Source of the DNA: Candidatus Auribacterota bacterium | GTDB taxonomy: Bacteria; Auribacterota; JAFGBW01 | Direction: 5' to 3' | DNA: 12,833 nucleotides | NCBI GenBank assembly: GCA_016932965.1 | Contig: JAFGBW010000274.1 | Span: 1 to 12,833, forward strand | Shown: in pieces, positions 1 to 8,015 of the stretch | Numbering within the stretch: the first letter of the stretch is position 1 | Layout: every line of letters starts with the position of its first letter | Translations under genes and position numbers: made by a program | The notes under the pieces: generated by a model | The model's input: the letters and a program-made list of their open reading frames with translations, nothing else | Told to the model about the DNA's origin: nothing | The model's database searches: none

Positions 1-729
1 AAATTCCTTTTCGGCGATAAATGGTATCCCATATCAGAGCCGCCCCAATTGGGCATTTTGCCGCTGATTGCAGGTTCAATAGTCGTGACGATTGGCGCCG
101 CGATCCTGTCCATTCCCGTCGGTATCGGAAGCGCTGTTTATATTGCGGAGATCGCTCCCTTGAAACTCAAGGAAATACTCAAAGCAGGCATCGAACTTCT
201 GGCCGCAATCCCGAGCGTTGTCCTGGGATTCATTGGAATGGTCACATTAGTGCCGGCGGTCAAGAGCCTTTTTCATCTCCCCACCGGTTTGACCGCATTT
301 TCCGGATCCATCATGCTTGCTTTCATGGCCATGCCGACGATTGTTTCCATAGCCGAAGACGCGCTTTACTCAGTCCCCAAGACATACAAGGAAGGGGCGT
401 TCGCGCTCGGCGCAACACACTGGCAGACCATATACCGCGTTATTCTTCCTGCTGCCTCTTCCGGGCTCATGGCATCCGTCATGCTGGGCATCGGACGGGT
501 GATCGGAGAAACCATGGCTGTCATGATGATCACCGGCAACGCGGCTGTCATCCCCAATACCATCATGCAGCCGGTCAGGACGCTGACCGCCACTATTGCC
601 GCTGAAATGGGCGAGGCTGTTGTGGGAAGCGAGCATTATTTCGCCCTGTTTGCCATCGGTATTGTTTTATTTGTTATCAGCTTTATCATCAATGTCACAG
701 CGGACATATTTTTACACAGAAGACAATGA
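1..729 (+). CDS. pstC: Phosphate ABC transporter permease PstC (5' partial)
   Basis: One of the two membrane subunits of the PstSCAB high-affinity phosphate importer. The reading frame is open from base 1 (first residues KFLFGDKWYP, a typical PstC stretch just before the conserved permease core), so the N-terminus lies upstream of the window and the TTG at 49 is internal. Several hydrophobic helices are visible. The EAA-type coupling loop that docks on the ATPase is clear at about 360-540: EDALYSVPKTYKEGAFALGA, then the GIGRVIGETMAV segment. The C-terminus ends with a hydrophobic helix. The stop overlaps the pstA start as ATGA (4 bases), so translation is probably coupled. The family is certain from these motifs. 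Assignment to PstC rather than PstA rests on position and on the FLFG..WYP segment. Confidence 0.93.
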   Translation, partial: KFLFGDKWYPISEPPQLGILPLIAGSIVVTIGAAILSIPVGIGSAVYIAEIAPLKLKEILKAGIELLAAIPSVVLGFIGMVTLVPAVKSLFHLPTGLTAFSGSIMLAFMAMPTIVSIAEDALYSVPKTYKEGAFALGATHWQTIYRVILPAASSGLMASVMLGIGRVIGETMAVMMITGNAAVIPNTIMQPVRTLTATIAAEMGEAVVGSEHYFALFAIGIVLFVISFIINVTADIFLHRRQ

Positions 730-1577
730 ACATGAACCCTCGCACAACCCAGAAACTGGCGTTTGCTTTTTTTCTGCTGGCAACACTTCTCATCATCGTG
801 CCTGTAGGACTGATTGTGGTTGTGATCATCCAGAAAGGCCTACCAGCCATATCGTGGGAATTTTTAACCAGTGTGCCAAAAAAGGGAATGAGGGCAGGAG
901 GTATTTTTCCAGCGATCATCGGCACTCTTTATCTGGTCTCAGGAGCCATCCTTTTCGCCCTGCCGATAGGCCTTTTCTCGGCCATTTATCTAAGCGAATA
1001 CGCCAAAGACAATTACATGAACCGGATCATCAAACTCTCGATTGTGAATCTGGCCGGCGTCCCTTCCGTTGTTTACGGACTCTTTGGACTGGCTTTATTC
1101 GTTGATTTCTTCAAATTCGGCGTCTCCATACTCGCAGGCTCGCTTACCCTTGGCATCATGATCCTGCCCATCATCATCACGGCTTCAAGAGAAGCCCTGG
1201 AAGCGGTTCCCTCCTCATTCAGGGAAGTCAGCTTATCACTGGGAGCCAGCAAATGGCAGACCATAAGGCACATTGTTCTTCCCAATTCCATATCAGGAAT
1301 CATCACGGGTACCATTCTCGGTATCGGACGGGCCGCAGGCGAGACCGCCCCCATTCTTTTTACCGTAGCGGCTTTTTATATACCGAAACTCCCCCATTCC
1401 ATTTTTGATCAGGTCATGGCACTGCCTTATCATTTGTACGTCATTTCAACCCAAGTACCGAACGTCAGCGAACAAATCCGATACGGGACAGCACTTGTCC
1501 TTATAGGAATGGTATTATTGATGAACCTGGCCGCTATCATTATCCGGTATCAATTCAGAAAGAAAAAAAAGTGGTGA
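726..1577 (+). CDS. pstA: Phosphate ABC transporter permease PstA
   Basis: Second membrane subunit of the phosphate importer, 283 aa, a normal length for PstA. The N-terminal helix (about residues 9-34) is followed by the characteristic IPAIIGTLYLV-type segment (seen as FPAIIGTLYL), YLSEYAKDN, the VPSVVYGLFGLALFV helix, and the EAA coupling loop REALEAVPSSFREVSLSLGA with GIGRAAGETAPILFT behind it. All are family hallmarks. The ATG overlaps the pstC stop by 4 bases. An internal ATG two codons later is possible. The stop codon overlaps the start of the first ATPase gene. PstA and PstC would form the channel heterodimer, so each permease could dock a different ATPase. That matters because the two PstB subunits downstream are not equivalent. 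Confidence 0.95.
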   Translation: MNMNPRTTQKLAFAFFLLATLLIIVPVGLIVVVIIQKGLPAISWEFLTSVPKKGMRAGGIFPAIIGTLYLVSGAILFALPIGLFSAIYLSEYAKDNYMNRIIKLSIVNLAGVPSVVYGLFGLALFVDFFKFGVSILAGSLTLGIMILPIIITASREALEAVPSSFREVSLSLGASKWQTIRHIVLPNSISGIITGTILGIGRAAGETAPILFTVAAFYIPKLPHSIFDQVMALPYHLYVISTQVPNVSEQIRYGTALVLIGMVLLMNLAAIIIRYQFRKKKKW

Positions 1578-2317
1578 AATTTATCATAGAAAATGTAAAC
1601 GCCTGGTTCGGCTCTGTGCAGAGTCTTAAGGAAATCAGCATGGAGGTCAAAGCGGATGAAATCCTGACCATCATTGGTCCTTCCAACAGCGGCAAGACAA
1701 CCTTTTTAAGGATTCTGAACAGAATGCATGAGCTCAACCCGGTATTCCGGATGCAAGGCCGCGTTCAGTTCAATGGTTCAGACATATCGACAATGGAGGT
1801 AGGCTTACTTAGAAAAAAAATCGGGATGGTGTTCGCCCTGCCCCTGCCCCTGCCGTTTACGATCTATGAAAACATAACATATGCCTTAAAAATGCACGGC
1901 ATCCGAAACAGGTCGATTCATATGGAGCGGGCGGAAAAGGCTCTCAGACAGGCATCATTGTGGAATGAAGTCAAAGACAGGTTAAAAACGTCCGCTTTCA
2001 AGCTGTCAGGAGGACAGCAGCAAAGGCTCTGCATTGCGAGAACCTTAGCCCTTGAGCCTGACGTGATTCTGTTTGACGAACCCTGTTCCGGCCTGGACCC
2101 GATTTCAACAGCCAAGGTTGAAGAAGCGATGTTTGAATTAAAAAAAGAATACACTATCGTGCTGGTAACCAACAACGTCAAGCAGGCTGCGCGTGTCGGA
2201 GACAAAACCGCCTTTTTCTTAAACGGCGAATTGATTGAGCTGGATAAAACCGAAAAAATTTTTACCGTGCCGTCTGATCAGAGAACGGATGATTATATCA
2301 GGGGGAAATTTGGATAA
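1574..2317 (+). CDS. pstB: Phosphate ABC transporter ATPase PstB, copy 1 (degenerate Q- and H-loops)
   Basis: ABC ATPase of the phosphate importer, 247 aa from the GTG at 1574, which gives a 4-base GTGA overlap with pstA. A GTG one codon earlier (1571) is equally readable. Residues numbered from 1574: A-loop aromatic around W11-F12; Walker A G35-T42 (GPSNSGKT, intact P-loop lysine); signature LSGGQ at 144-148, intact; Walker B VILFDE with D168 and E169, intact; D-loop SGLDP. Two normally invariant positions are changed. The Q-loop reads [12 protein letters not shown] where PstB usually has GMVFQKPNPFP, so the Gln is Ala88. The switch motif reads VTNN where PstB has VTHN, so the His is Asn200. 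Length and flanking sequence align without gaps to copy 2, so these are substitutions and not frameshifts. Alone it should hydrolyse ATP poorly. It probably acts as the partner of PstB2 and supplies the good signature motif. Confidence 0.93.
2301..2306 (+). promoter_or_regulatory. Shine-Dalgarno candidate deciding the pstB2 start
   Basis: A GGGGGA run inside the last codons of pstB1 sits 3 bases before the TTG at 2310. It supports a TTG start with an 8-base overlap. The alternative in-frame ATG at 2289 has only weak purine sequence ahead of it and would add seven residues not expected from the family. The spacing is short, so this is a preference and not a proof. Confidence 0.35.
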
Positions 2318-3074
2318 GACAATCAAAATTAAAATCCTGGATCTGGATTTCTGGTACGGGACGTTCCAAGCCCTTAAAAAGATCAATGCCTCCATCACCG
2401 AGAAAAAAATCACTGCCCTGATCGGGCCGTCAGGATGCGGGAAATCAACTCTCTTAAGGGTTTTCAACAGAATGAACGATTTCATCGAAGGTGTACGCAC
2501 CGAAGGCTCGGTTGAAATCGACGGGAAAGAGATTCTGGGCCCGTCCGTTGACCTGGTGTCCTTGCGAAAAAATGTGGGGATGGTATTTCAAAGGCCCAAT
2601 CCATTTCCTCTGTCCGTCTATGAAAACATCGTTTTCGGACTCAGAATACACCGGGACCACTTATCAAAAAGAGAATATGACAACATGGTGGAAAAAAGCC
2701 TGAAATCCGTCCTTCTCTGGGATGAATTAAAGGACCGCCTGAAGAAACCGGCGCTTTCGCTTTCTCTTGAACAGAAACAAAGACTTTGTATCGCAAGGCT
2801 CATTGCGGTAAAATCAGACGTCCTCTTAATGGATGAACCCTGTTCAACGCTGGATCCTCAGTCTACTGCAAAAATTGAAGAGCTGATGATCGAACTGAAA
2901 AAAGATTACACCATCATCATCGTGACGCACAATATGCAGCAGGCCTCACGGATCTCCGATGATACGGGATTCATGCTGCTGGGTGAATTGGTTGAATTCG
3001 GTAAAACCAAAAGCATATTTACAGCGCCTTCGGACAAAAGAACCGAGGATTACATAACCGGAAGATACGGATAA
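2310..3074 (+). CDS. pstB: Phosphate ABC transporter ATPase PstB, copy 2 (degenerate signature motif)
   Basis: Second phosphate-importer ATPase, 254 aa from TTG 2310 (261 aa from ATG 2289). The frame is open upstream to 2235, but that extension is not PstB-like. Residues numbered from 2310: FWYG A-loop; Walker A G39-S46 (GPSGCGKS), canonical; Q-loop [11 protein letters not shown] with Q94 present; Walker B LLMDE with D175 and E176; D-loop STLDP; switch VTHN with H207 present. The ABC signature, normally LSGGQQQR in PstB, reads LSLEQKQR (L151-Q155), so both glycines that contact the ATP gamma-phosphate across the dimer are lost. The C-terminal part (about 80 residues) is clearly paralogous to copy 1, and the two probably arose by tandem duplication. 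The defects mirror those of PstB1, which suggests an obligate heterodimer and argues against redundancy. Confidence 0.93.
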
Positions 3075-3096: not shown

Positions 3097-3765
3097 ATGC
3101 ATAGACATTTTGATGATGAATTACAGGGTTTAAACCAGGAACTAATCAAGATGAGTGAAATGGTCAAAACAGCCATCAATCATTCCGTAACGGCTCTTGA
3201 TCAACGGGACAGACAAATGGCGGAGGAAGTGATCAGTAAGGACAACGAGATTGACCTGATGGAAATCCATATCGATGAAGTGTGCATTGACTTGATTGCG
3301 AAACATCAACCGATGGCAAGCGATCTTCGCCTGATTACTACAGGCATGAAAATCAACGCGGACCTGGAAAGGATGGCTGACCTGGCGGTCAATATCTGTC
3401 AGCGTGTTCTTGAGATTGTCAACCAGGATCCCATCACTCCTCCTGCCGATATATCCAAATTATCCCTCATGGCTGAAAACATGATCAACGATTCCATCAC
3501 GGCATTCATTGAAAGCAATCTCCAGATGGCCAAACAAGTGATGACATCAGATGATCAGGCAGACAAGCTTCGCAATGACATAAAAGAAGACCTGCTGAAA
3601 AATTACATGGAAAAAGACCCCTCCACTTCCAGGAGGGCGGTTGCCCTGCTTTTGATTACCCGGCATCTTGAAAGGATCTGCGATCACGCGACCTATGTTG
3701 CCGAAGAAGTGATCTATCTGATGAAAGGAAAAATAGTTAAACACCATTTTCAGGAATTACCTTGA
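3097..3765 (+). CDS. phoU: Phosphate transport regulator PhoU
   Basis: Cytoplasmic regulator that restrains Pst transport and, in most bacteria, the PhoR-PhoB two-component system. The 222 aa length is normal. It consists of two homologous three-helix bundles, each with the family's metal-binding signature. The first copy is around residues 70-95 (HQPMASDLRLI, then DLERMADLAVNI with E91 and D95). The second is around 189-197 (RHLERICDH with E192 and D196, followed by VAEEVIYLMKGKIVKH). A strong Shine-Dalgarno (AAGGAAGG, 3086-3093) precedes the ATG, suggesting more independent translation than the coupled genes upstream. The last 9 bases overlap the convergent gene on the other strand. No pho box can be judged because the operon promoter lies outside the window. 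Confidence 0.96.
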   Translation: MHRHFDDELQGLNQELIKMSEMVKTAINHSVTALDQRDRQMAEEVISKDNEIDLMEIHIDEVCIDLIAKHQPMASDLRLITTGMKINADLERMADLAVNICQRVLEIVNQDPITPPADISKLSLMAENMINDSITAFIESNLQMAKQVMTSDDQADKLRNDIKEDLLKNYMEKDPSTSRRAVALLLITRHLERICDHATYVAEEVIYLMKGKIVKHHFQELP

Positions 3766-4854
3766 ATCTGTAGGTAAAGGGGAAGGATGAGTCCTTTTGA
3801 TCATGATCCATTCTTTGAGCAGCGAATACCCTATGACCAGGAGGGTCGGCCCGATGAAAAATCCGATGAATCCAAATGCGAGCAGACCACCGAGAACCCC
3901 GAAAAAAATCAGTGCAAAGGGCATTTTCAATTCCCTGCTGATCAGATAGGGTTTAAGTAAATTGTCCACACCGCTGATAATGAGCATTCCGTAAAAAAAG
4001 ATAAAAATACTGAAACCGGTTTTCCCGTTCATATAGAGATAGCCGGCTGCCGGCAGCCAGACAAAAGCAGGCCCTCCGGGGATGGTGATCAGGGAAAGAA
4101 AAAAAGTCAAAACCCCCAGCATCAGCGCGGAAGGGACCCCGGCCACGTAAAAGCCATAGGCTGCCAGGATACCCTGAGCAATGGCCGTGCCGATGATACC
4201 GTAAACCACACCGCGGATGGTCCGTCCCACTACTTGAAAATAATGCGCAGTCTGGCTTCCTGCCAGACGTTTCATGCCTTCGGAAAGAAGACGGAAAATA
4301 GCCTCGCCGTGTCTGAAAAAAAAGAAGCACATGAACACACTCAGGCTGAGCTGCATGATGCCGTGCCCAAGATCCAAACCGCATTGGATTAAAAATGTCC
4401 TGATCTGAGACTGTGAAAGTGTCTTTTTAAACAGTTCATTGAATTTGTCTGTATGAACACTCCACTCCTTCCAATAAACAACCAATGAATCTCCGACAAA
4501 AGGGGTTTTTTTCAGCCACAACGGAGCTTCGTGAGGTCCTTTTACGGCCCATTCCAGGATATAGTTGGCCAGGGTCTGAAGATTTTCTGCGAAAGAAAGA
4601 CTCACATATAAAAACGGCGTGATCAGAATGGCTGCTATCAGGGCAGACATGATAAACGCGGTAATCGTTCTTTTCTTTTTAAGCATCTGATTCAACTGAA
4701 GATAGGCTGGCCAGGCTGAATAACAGAGTACTCCTCCTAAGAGAATGGATGTCACAAACGGTTTCAGCACATAAAGACAACCCGTGATCAAAATCCCAAT
4801 GAGGATCATCCCGCCAATCTGCTCTATCCTGGTTATGGTTTTATACATATTCAT
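3757..4854 (-). CDS. AI-2E/PerM (YdiK-like) family membrane transporter
   Basis: Integral inner-membrane protein, 365 aa, of the family once called UPF0118. Members have been assigned AI-2 export, Na+/H+ antiport or permease roles, and the substrate cannot be told from sequence. Visible hallmarks are two N-terminal helices (about 14-60), a third helix near 65-90, a long soluble segment (about 95-165), then a C-terminal helical bundle with IPGGPAFVW near residue 257, DNLLKPYLISRELKMP near 295 and GVLGGLLAFGFIGFFIGP near 320. The ATG at 4854 has no clear Shine-Dalgarno, and a second ATG lies two codons inside. It converges on phoU and shares 9 bases with it, so there is no room for a conventional terminator between them. 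Its link to phosphate uptake is unknown. Confidence 0.88.
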   Translation of the reverse strand: MNMYKTITRIEQIGGMILIGILITGCLYVLKPFVTSILLGGVLCYSAWPAYLQLNQMLKKKRTITAFIMSALIAAILITPFLYVSLSFAENLQTLANYILEWAVKGPHEAPLWLKKTPFVGDSLVVYWKEWSVHTDKFNELFKKTLSQSQIRTFLIQCGLDLGHGIMQLSLSVFMCFFFFRHGEAIFRLLSEGMKRLAGSQTAHYFQVVGRTIRGVVYGIIGTAIAQGILAAYGFYVAGVPSALMLGVLTFFLSLITIPGGPAFVWLPAAGYLYMNGKTGFSIFIFFYGMLIISGVDNLLKPYLISRELKMPFALIFFGVLGGLLAFGFIGFFIGPTLLVIGYSLLKEWIMIKRTHPSPLPTDSR

Positions 4855-5230: not shown

Positions 5231-5650
5231 ATGGAACTGAAAAAGATTTTTACTTTTGATGCCGCCCATTTCCTGCCCTGCCTGCCGGAATCTCATCCCT
5301 GCTCGAAAATGCATGGACACCATTTTAAAATTGCCGTTTCAGTAAAAGGTAAGGTCCGATCAGGTCATGGCTGGGTCATGGATTACGGTGAAATCAAGGA
5401 AAAAACCCAGCCCCTGATTCAGCAACTGGATCATTCGGTCTTAAATGATATTCCCGGCCTGGAAAACCCGACTTCAGAGCAGATCGCTCTCTGGTTTTGG
5501 AACCGTCTTAAATCCAGGCTGGATCTGCTAAATGCAATTGAAGTCTGGGAAAGCGAAACATCGCAGTGTATTTACCGCGGTGAATCTGTATCCGGCAGGA
5601 ATAAACTGAGGATCAATCCCATCACTTCAAAACGGAAAAAGGATGATTGA
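5231..5650 (+). CDS. queD: 6-carboxy-5,6,7,8-tetrahydropterin synthase QueD
   Basis: PTPS/QueD-family enzyme (139 aa) that converts dihydroneopterin triphosphate to 6-carboxytetrahydropterin, the second step of 7-deazaguanine (queuosine/preQ1) synthesis. Zinc ligands are visible at H13 (FDAAH) and at H28 and H30 (MHGH). The catalytic Cys is C24, the Asp-His pair D67-H68 (LDHSVLND), and the conserved Glu is near E107, before CIYRGE. The stretch LNDIPGLENPTSE is the classic QueD sequence and distinguishes it from eukaryotic-type PTPS. The ATG has only a weak ribosome site. Its usual partners queC, queE and queF are not here. Instead the stop codon overlaps the start of a NusG paralogue, an unusual neighbour. 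Confidence 0.93.
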   Translation: MELKKIFTFDAAHFLPCLPESHPCSKMHGHHFKIAVSVKGKVRSGHGWVMDYGEIKEKTQPLIQQLDHSVLNDIPGLENPTSEQIALWFWNRLKSRLDLLNAIEVWESETSQCIYRGESVSGRNKLRINPITSKRKKDD

Positions 5651-6174
5651 AATTGGAATCTGCTGATGAACAACAGGCTTATACCGGAAACCGGTGGTAC
5701 GCAGTTCAGACACGTTCACGTCATGAAAAACTTTCAGGAACTCTGGTCGCCAAAAAAGGCATAGAAGTCTATCTGCCTGTAAAAAAATCACTTCGGACCT
5801 GGTCGGACAGAAAAAAATGGATCGAGTTTCCGCTTTTCAAAGGGTATTTTTTTGTACGTCTGCCTTTTTCGAAAAAAGATCAGGTTCTACAGACTAAAGG
5901 AGTGGTCAAAATTCTGGGAGAAAAAAAACCCGAACCCATTCCTGATGATCAGATTGAAAGCCTGAAAAGCTTTGAAAAATACGAAGTGGAAGTAGATCCA
6001 TATCCTCAATTTCAGCCAGGGAGAAACGTGAAGGTCATTCACGGCCCTCTGCAAGGTTGTACCGGTATTTTGACGCAAAAAAAAGGACGGTACCGTCTGG
6101 TTGTTCTGATCAAAGTTCTCATGCAGGCTGCGTCTGTTGAAATTGACGGCAATGATGTGGAATTGATCGATTGA
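5647..6174 (+). CDS. Specialised NusG paralogue (UpxY/RfaH/LoaP-type elongation factor)
   Basis: NusG-superfamily transcription elongation factor, 175 aa. The N-terminal NGN domain begins WYAVQTRSRHEK (residues 17-28) and continues with KKGIEVYLPVKK, WSDRKKW and PLFKGYFFVRL, then GVVKILGEKKPEPIPDDQIE, a pattern typical of paralogues such as UpxY and not of core NusG. A KOW domain follows from about residue 123 (PGRNVKVIHGPLQGCTGIL). Core NusG is normally beside secE and rplK, which are absent here. No ATG fits the start. TTG 5647 overlaps the queD stop as TTGA, while TTG 5653 lies 9 bases after AAGGA (5639-5643) and is the better-spaced alternative. Such paralogues usually act on a nearby long operon, often for surface polysaccharide. 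The likely local target here is the protease-lipoprotein-glycosyltransferase run, which is inference. Confidence 0.87.
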   Translation: MKLESADEQQAYTGNRWYAVQTRSRHEKLSGTLVAKKGIEVYLPVKKSLRTWSDRKKWIEFPLFKGYFFVRLPFSKKDQVLQTKGVVKILGEKKPEPIPDDQIESLKSFEKYEVEVDPYPQFQPGRNVKVIHGPLQGCTGILTQKKGRYRLVVLIKVLMQAASVEIDGNDVELID

Positions 6175-6269: not shown

Positions 6270-8015
6270 ATGTGGCTTAAACATTTGCGCTTATGGATCG
6301 GATATCACTGGCTGAAATTGATCATCATCCTGATCGCGCTTATCAATCTGGCCCTGGTGGCTTATGGAATCATCTGTTTCCGGAACCTGGATTCCTTTTA
6401 CAAGGAATACATGTTTGCTTCGGTCCCCATACAAATCCCCATTGGGCTACTCCATGCTTTTATCTGGATTTTCGGATACTGGTACTTGATCAGGATGGGA
6501 AGCGGATCTACCAAGGATTCCAAAGCCATTCCCCCTGAAAAATTGAATGTTTCCTTCAACGGCGTCATTGGAATTGACGAAGCAAAAGAAGAATGCATGG
6601 AGGTGGTTCATCTCATCAAAGACCGGCAGCGGATAAAAAGGATTGGCGGAAAAATCGTAAGGGGGCTCTTAATGATCGGGCCTCCCGGCTGCGGCAAGAC
6701 ACTTCTTGCAAAAGCCATTGCCTGCGAATCGAAAATTCCTTTTCTGGCCATGGCTGGATCTGAATTCAATGAAATGTATGTGGGTGTAGGCGCTTCCCGT
6801 GTGAGAAAGCTTTTTTCCAATGCCAGACGCTATGCAAATATTTATGGCAGCTGCATTATTTTCATTGATGAACTGGACGCCATCGGACGCGGTCGTCAAT
6901 TCTCCATCGGGGCAGGCGGCGGAGAAACAAACGCCACCCAGAACCAGCTTCTGGTAGAAATGGACGGATTAAACGAAGGAACCGGTGCTAATGTCATTGT
7001 GATCGGAGCGACGAACGCTCCGCCAGACTCTTTGGATGAAGCCTTATTGAGACCAGGACGTTTTGACCGTAAAATCATGATTGACCGTCCATACGCAGAG
7101 GGCCGTTTTAAACTGTTTCAATATTACCTGGGCAAGGTAAAATATGATCCCAGCATCGACCTCATGAGACTCGCGAATTATACGATTGGAATGAGCCCGG
7201 CTGATATTGAAAACGTGATCAAGGAATCCGCTCTGATATGCACCAGGGATAGAAGGGAAATCATAGAGCAGAAAGACATCACTCATGCTCTGGAAAGGGT
7301 CACGCTCGGCCAGGAAAGAAAAAGAAAAATCCATCCATTCGAACTGAGAAGAACCGCTGTTCATGAATCCGGGCACGCGATCCTGTTGTATTATCTCCAT
7401 CCGATTGATGATGTCTTCAAAGTATCGGTTGTGACCCGCGGAGGCACACTGGGAGTCATGCATCATCAGCCGATCGTAGAAATGTCCGGAAAGGACCGGA
7501 TCATGCTTGAAGCCAACATCACCACAAGCCTGGGCGGATATGCGGCTGAAAAGCTGGTGTTCGAATGCACGGCCTGGGGTTGTTCTTCTGATTTCAGAAA
7601 TGTGATGCATCTGGCTAAAATGATGGTGTACCAGGTCGGCATGGGATACTCAGGAATGGTTGGGGATTATACGTATCTAGGGCAGGAATACCAGCGAAGC
7701 GGCCAAGACCCCCTTTCAGAAACTCTCAAACAGAAGTTAAATGACGATGTGGTCTATATTCTGCAGAAATGTCTTAAAGAAGCCATGGATATTCTTGAAA
7801 GAGAAAAAGTCCTTCTGGAAAAAATGTCTGAAATCCTGATAGAAAAGAAGACCCTGGAATATGACGAGGTCACTGATATCTGCCAGAAATATGGTGTAGG
7901 CAAAATCCGTAAGATCGAGGAAAAAGGACTGTTGCAGGAATTTAAAAAACTGCTTGAAAGCACTGCTCATTCTCCTATAGCCGCTGAGACACCCCAGCCG
8001 GGAAATGGAGGATAA
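6270..8015 (+). CDS. FtsH-family membrane AAA+ zinc metalloprotease (divergent paralogue)
   Basis: Membrane-anchored ATP-dependent protease, 581 aa, shorter than typical FtsH (about 610-650). Two N-terminal membrane helices (about 15-37 and 54-76) are separated by only about 16 residues, where classical FtsH has an extracytoplasmic domain of roughly 70. The AAA+ module is intact: Walker A GPPGCGKT (137-144), pore motif MYVG (Y170 in place of the usual Phe), Walker B IIFIDE (D200, E201), and second region of homology ATNAPPDSLDEALLRPGRFDR ending at R267 with R264 and R267 as Arg fingers. The protease domain has HESGH (H365, E366, H369), with D441 in the SSDFRN segment as probable third zinc ligand. 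All catalytic residues are therefore present. The housekeeping ftsH is probably elsewhere. The tight junction with a lipoprotein gene downstream suggests a dedicated envelope role, which is inference. Confidence 0.9.
   Translation: MWLKHLRLWIGYHWLKLIIILIALINLALVAYGIICFRNLDSFYKEYMFASVPIQIPIGLLHAFIWIFGYWYLIRMGSGSTKDSKAIPPEKLNVSFNGVIGIDEAKEECMEVVHLIKDRQRIKRIGGKIVRGLLMIGPPGCGKTLLAKAIACESKIPFLAMAGSEFNEMYVGVGASRVRKLFSNARRYANIYGSCIIFIDELDAIGRGRQFSIGAGGGETNATQNQLLVEMDGLNEGTGANVIVIGATNAPPDSLDEALLRPGRFDRKIMIDRPYAEGRFKLFQYYLGKVKYDPSIDLMRLANYTIGMSPADIENVIKESALICTRDRREIIEQKDITHALERVTLGQERKRKIHPFELRRTAVHESGHAILLYYLHPIDDVFKVSVVTRGGTLGVMHHQPIVEMSGKDRIMLEANITTSLGGYAAEKLVFECTAWGCSSDFRNVMHLAKMMVYQVGMGYSGMVGDYTYLGQEYQRSGQDPLSETLKQKLNDDVVYILQKCLKEAMDILEREKVLLEKMSEILIEKKTLEYDEVTDICQKYGVGKIRKIEEKGLLQEFKKLLESTAHSPIAAETPQPGNGG

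Follow-up and report, generated by a model that had tools for sequence, protein, structure and literature searches.

Reciprocal motif losses in tandem PstB ATPases point to a probable asymmetric heterodimeric phosphate importer in mostly uncultured bacteria

The stretch of DNA analysed here (the window; 12,833 nucleotides, contig JAFGBW010000274.1 of a Candidatus Auribacterota bacterium) carries one pst operon, with the end of pstC, pstA, two adjacent pstB genes and phoU following each other in this order on the forward strand. The contig begins inside pstC, whose 3' part occupies positions 49-729 (TIGR02138, 251.9 bits). It is followed by pstA at 726-1577 (TIGR00974, 296.2 bits), pstB1 at 1571-2317, pstB2 at 2310-3074 and, immediately 3' of pstB2, phoU at 3097-3765 (TIGR02135, 202.6 bits). 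The PstC, PstA and PhoU matches are all above their cut-offs. The pstB1 gene starts with GTG at 1571 or 1574, and pstB2, the start of which overlaps the pstB1 end, probably with TTG at 2310, preceded by AGGGGG; ATG at 2289 is an alternative. Against the PstB profile TIGR00972 (cut-off 343.2 bits), PstB2 passes with 365.4 bits and PstB1 falls slightly short with 338.3 bits, although PstB is still by far its top family. The AlphaFold2 model of PstB1 has a pLDDT of 95.4, and the best match among solved structures is, for both ATPases, PstB of E. coli PstSCAB (PDB 9k3s, 9k3x). Judged from profile and structure matches, both proteins are members of the PstB family of the Pst phosphate ABC importer.

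Further genes of the window were named by sequence alone. A probable AI-2E/PerM-type membrane permease is encoded at 3757-4854 on the reverse strand, convergent with phoU. A NusG-like gene at 5647-6174 adjoins the gene of an FtsH-like AAA+ protease at 6270-8015 (581 aa, HESGH zinc motif).

Translation of the two pstB genes revealed complementary losses. In PstB1, the Q-loop Gln is replaced by Ala (Ala88) and the H-loop His by Asn (Asn200), and the catalytic Glu169 and the LSGGQ signature are intact. In PstB2, Walker A, Gln94, Glu176 and His207 are all intact and the signature reads LSLEQ. These residues agree with what an earlier note on this DNA had read from the letters, and its numbering is consistent with GTG 1574 for PstB1 and TTG 2310 for PstB2. 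The same note had called the PstB1 Walker A intact, which is generous: the motif fits GxxxxGK[ST], but Asn stands where the ABC-typical GxxGxGK has its middle Gly, a position that varies among relatives too. The Walker A/Q-loop/H-loop face of PstB1 is degenerate.

The earlier note had asked for these motifs to be tabulated in tandem pairs of relatives, and the outcome is the one it predicted. The same split, with the Gln lost in PstB1 and the signature altered in PstB2, occurs in 113 distinct pairs, both members at one locus, which come from about 20 phyla and, with few exceptions, from uncultured lineages. Five more genomes of the phylum have adjacent pairs of this kind, their PstB2 signatures being LSGEE, LSGEQ, IPLEQ and LPLDQ. 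The bacterial and archaeal genome collection was scanned with a DNA pattern of the Q-lost loop (GM-F-A-P-PLP), yielding at least 116 loci. The matches listed belong to 18 named NCBI phyla and several candidate groups, and Omnitrophota, Elusimicrobiota and Chloroflexota predominate among them. Since almost all of these records are metagenome-assembled, an isolated, unexpected phylum label may stem from a binning error. In viral contigs, no PstB1-type Q-loop was found by this pattern scan. PstA and PstC are encoded upstream of PstB1 in all 61 pairs with room upstream, and PhoU directly downstream of the pair in 45 of the 76 loci with room.

Because the pattern scan selected on the lost Gln, a profile search with PstB1 was added. 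Among 384 genomes, 20 contain a protein scoring at least 389.9 bits, the top canonical PstB reaching 383.9 bits. All 20 lack the Gln (18 have Ala, 2 Asp), carry Asn for the His and retain SGGQ. A PstB with degenerate signature adjoins PstB1 in 19 of these genomes, and in the twentieth the partner is on another contig; there, as in other Elusimicrobiota with the partner elsewhere, it has intact Walker A, Gln and His and a degenerate signature. Twelve entries without a partner at the locus (two of them from one genome) were rechecked genome-wide, and the partner is present in all but two. In one of the two genomes without PstB2, PstB1 ends close to the edge of its contig; the second genome is an assembly of 0.7 Mb. 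Some Endomicrobium-type genomes (Elusimicrobiota) have pstB1 and pstB2 separated yet keep both (L205/L244 with L223/L224, L237 with L222, L236 with L225). Neither canonical relatives of the pair, nor relatives with random losses, nor a sequencing error appeared in the comparative data. A chance origin of the reciprocal split is ruled out by the 113 distinct pairs together with the 20/20 genomes of the profile search.

Next, motifs were counted in 124 distinct PstB1, 111 PstB2 and 57 canonical PstB sequences, the PstB2 class being defined by a signature other than SGGQ and the canonical class by SGGQ. The PstB1 signature is SGGQ in 124/124, and 121 of the 124, PstB1 of the window included, retain the catalytic Glu. 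The Walker A glycines and lysine, the Gln and the His of PstB2 are intact in 111/111, and its signature takes 23 variants, never SGGQ, as the class is so defined. Canonical PstBs keep Gln and His in all 57 distinct sequences sampled. Among the PstB1 loci there is no case of PstB1 followed by a canonical PstB.

Minimum numbers of changes were obtained on a tree built without the motif columns. For PstB1 they amount to none in the signature and at least 29 in the Walker A core; for PstB2, to at least 26 in the signature and none in Walker A, Gln and His. Canonical PstBs show no change in the signature (by definition), one in Walker A and none in Gln or His. With the geometry of composite ATP sites as reviewed in PMC7756269, the losses hit one composite site on each of its two faces and leave the other site canonical on both. 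This pattern fits the expectation for a pair in which the site made of PstB1 core and PstB2 signature would have been freed from selection and the other site would not.

Losses in the two partners also coincide residue by residue. The PstB1 His and the fourth residue of the PstB2 signature are both lost in 89 of the 113 pairs and both kept in 24, with no mixed pair; where the latter is lost, E, D or Y replaces G. The His-kept class is a Chloroflexota and Bacillota type with VPHS or VTHN and mostly an LSLGQ-like partner signature, and represents a milder form. Behind this coincidence there are two changes of the His and one of G4 on the tree. With one or two tree events per side it is suggestive rather than a statistical proof. 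It would be in line with two matched steps, in which Gln and signature residue 3 might have been lost first and His and residue 4 later.

The permeases differ as well. PstA of His-lost pairs has a coupling helix of the form R-E-V-S-x-S-L-G, with Val in 70/73 sequences versus 0/34 canonical PstA, and their PstC has K/R-E-G-A-x-A-L-G, with Gly in 77/80 versus 3/17 canonical sequences. PstC of the His-kept type stands outside this tabulation, the motif having been found in too few of them. Both helices of the window, KEGAFALGATHWQT in PstC and REVSLSLGASKWQT in PstA, are of the asymmetric type. Coupling helices dock close to the ATPase Q-loop, and their divergence therefore fits adaptation to two unlike ATPases. 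Shared operon ancestry could account for them as well.

Phylogenetically, PstB1 is one clade (SH-aLRT 97, and 99 without motif columns). PstB2 is nearly one clade, with two to three label changes and with canonical rows weakly placed near the base. Within each group, Bacillota-type and Chloroflexota-type members split from the remainder near the base. The distance matrices of the partners correlate with r 0.874, the permuted maximum being 0.09. Median dN/dS values for the pair genes are 0.32 and 0.21 and no value exceeds 0.6; both genes are under purifying selection.

The same genome encodes a third PstB, canonical in all motifs, on contig C98 (L276, 1847-10030). There, pstS, pstC, pstA and pstB make up a full canonical pst operon, so that the genome retains the asymmetric importer alongside a canonical one. 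The C98 permeases have ordinary REAS helices. Response regulator-like and histidine kinase-like genes follow this pstB, a phoU-like gene lies on the opposite strand and a porin-like gene nearby (all named by sequence). The end of another contig, C161 (L278:2756-3643), with pstS, pstC and the start of pstA, is 88.5% identical to window positions 1-887. Either the genome has the asymmetric operon twice, or sequence of a related strain has entered the assembly. In this operon start pstS precedes pstC, the gene inside which the window contig begins.

Two further kinds of PstB-like proteins were encountered. A separate clade (L249-L252, L254, L238) has a GLLSQ-PLP loop, an LSVGQ, LSLGQ or LSIGQ signature and mostly VTHILRQ. 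At those loci, no neighbouring PstB1-type partner was seen, and the clade was excluded from the pair counts. The other kind is the PstB-like product of L255:1501-2235 (+), in which almost every motif deviates (IFRQP, LTPAQ, VPQN); its genome encodes a canonical PstB too.

Since matching losses recur in more than 100 other pairs, a mixed motor pair most likely powers this importer. We put at roughly 0.86 the probability that PstB1 and PstB2 work as an obligate heterodimer beneath PstC and PstA, with one canonical, transport-driving ATP site and one degenerate site. The PstB2 core (Walker A/B, Q- and H-loops) would meet LSGGQ of PstB1 in the canonical site, which would hydrolyse ATP and drive transport. 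The PstB1 core, with Gln changed to Ala, His to Asn and a relaxed Walker A, would meet LSLEQ of PstB2 in the degenerate site. The latter most likely binds ATP, holds the dimer together and hydrolyses poorly, acting as a clamp or timer. Slow hydrolysis at the weak site may nevertheless occur, given that PstB1 retains its catalytic Glu and that MRP1 tolerates the exchange of His for Asn: with Asn at this H-loop position, transport stayed wild-type-like (PMC7756269). Further points that weigh against the heterodimer are the small number of tree events behind the His/G4 coincidence, the milder Chloroflexota-type pairs, the LSVGQ-like signatures of the PstB-like clade for which no adjacent PstB1-type partner was seen, and the replacement of PstB1 by excess PstB2 in the E. 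faecalis tandem, although both proteins are canonical there (PMC12096839). The obligate heterodimer had already been proposed in the earlier note, and constraint relaxed in trans across the pairs supports it; from the sequences we infer physical heterodimerisation itself, hydrolysis of one ATP per cycle and the docking partners of permeases and ATPases. That one ATP is spent per phosphate, and that the pair is linked to PhoU signalling, is speculation. A broader view, for which we would not quite offer even odds, is that these operons represent a widespread and ancient second form of Pst, found almost only in uncultured organisms, which uses one ATP per phosphate, turns the degenerate site into a regulatory clamp and works beside canonical Pst in some cells.

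Alternatively, PstB1 may be an ATP-sensing regulatory subunit, engaged for instance in PhoU signalling and only part-time in the importer, while PstB2 homodimers transport despite their altered signature. The phoU gene 3' of the window pair and in 45 of the 76 loci with room would suit such a role, as would the tandem PstBs of E. faecalis, where a required and an accessory protein are encoded side by side (PMC12096839). We regard it as improbable: a PstB2 homodimer would combine two altered signatures, PstB2 never having SGGQ in the pairs found, and the invariance of SGGQ in PstB1 (124/124) would make sense only if this signature contributed to an active site with a partner. Moreover, PhoU is missing directly behind the pair in 31 of the 76 loci.

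Even less credence is due to a symmetric use of the pair, in which the changed motifs would have no effect or be compensated, hydrolysis would take place at both sites and the pattern would go back to one ancestral event. Both clades do have few origins, LSxGQ is found elsewhere, in the PstB-like class without a PstB1-type neighbour, and the kept Glu of PstB1 and the tolerance of Asn at the H-loop in MRP1 (PMC7756269) agree with active sites on both sides. However, change has continued one-sidedly and in opposite directions in the two proteins, with at least 29 and at least 26 steps against 0. Constraint must therefore truly differ between the composite sites. A decaying duplicate or an assembly error has a negligible chance of explaining the pair, even though the assembly is a draft of 300 contigs and the end of another contig matches the window start at 88.5%. 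The pattern occurs in more than 100 other assemblies, dN/dS values stay well under 1, neither frame is interrupted and PstB1 is modelled with high confidence (pLDDT 95.4). Decay, which the earlier note had already dismissed, and sequencing error are thus rejected on comparative data.

The proposed obligate PstB1-PstB2 heterodimer bears on a debated question. Exporters commonly have a degenerate ATP site, the role of which is still disputed; here the same kind of change is met in a well-studied importer family, in separate genes and across about 20 phyla. Canonical relatives survive, sometimes in the same genome, so that one-site and two-site engines can be compared on the same substrate. This raises the question whether such importers save ATP. 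Many pst operons annotated as having two PstB copies probably carry an obligate pair and not redundancy.

Tandem pstB genes, as well as degenerate sites in exporters and in fused importer ATPases, are already known. Reciprocal motif losses in a Pst importer seem new: no earlier report was found in the open-licence literature, a scope that falls short of proof of absence.

E. coli uses one PstB twice, as a canonical homodimer. Its PstSCAB (PDB 9k3s, 9k3x) belongs to the same importer family and has the same subunits as the window system, which differs in having two specialised ATPases. Closer in gene arrangement are PstB1/PstB2 of E. faecalis (PMC12096839) and PstBA/PstBB of B. subtilis (PMC11466899), likewise adjacent pstB genes of one importer; the earlier note had rightly stated that such tandems exist. 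In E. faecalis, a 2025 genetic study, which states that no genetic study of tandem pstB had been published before, found unequal roles, canonical motifs in both proteins and substitution of PstB1 by excess PstB2 (PMC12096839). The B. subtilis PstBA-PstBB pair has been modelled (PMC11466899). Since the sampled loci contain no canonical tandem pstB pair that might serve as a sequence control, this control rests on the E. faecalis paper.

Loss on both faces of one site, with the other site spared, is also seen in the degenerate-site exporters TM287/288, BmrCD, TAP, MRP1 and Pdr5, the last with an LNVEQ signature and an altered H-loop (PMC7756269). Those exporters often have a changed catalytic Glu, whereas the Pst pair belongs to an importer, keeps the Glu almost always and has invariably lost the Q-loop Gln. 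In TM287/288-type exporters, membrane and ATPase domains share one chain; in the window, separate PstB genes accompany PstC and PstA permeases. The parallel to TM287/288 drawn in the earlier note is hence limited to ATP-site asymmetry and does not extend to the Glu or to the direction of transport. Among importers, RbsA and NupO of B. subtilis have one degenerate ATP site (PMC11466899). They are of another importer class, with fused nucleotide-binding domains and a lost Walker lysine, whereas here the asymmetry is divided between two separate genes of the Pst family.
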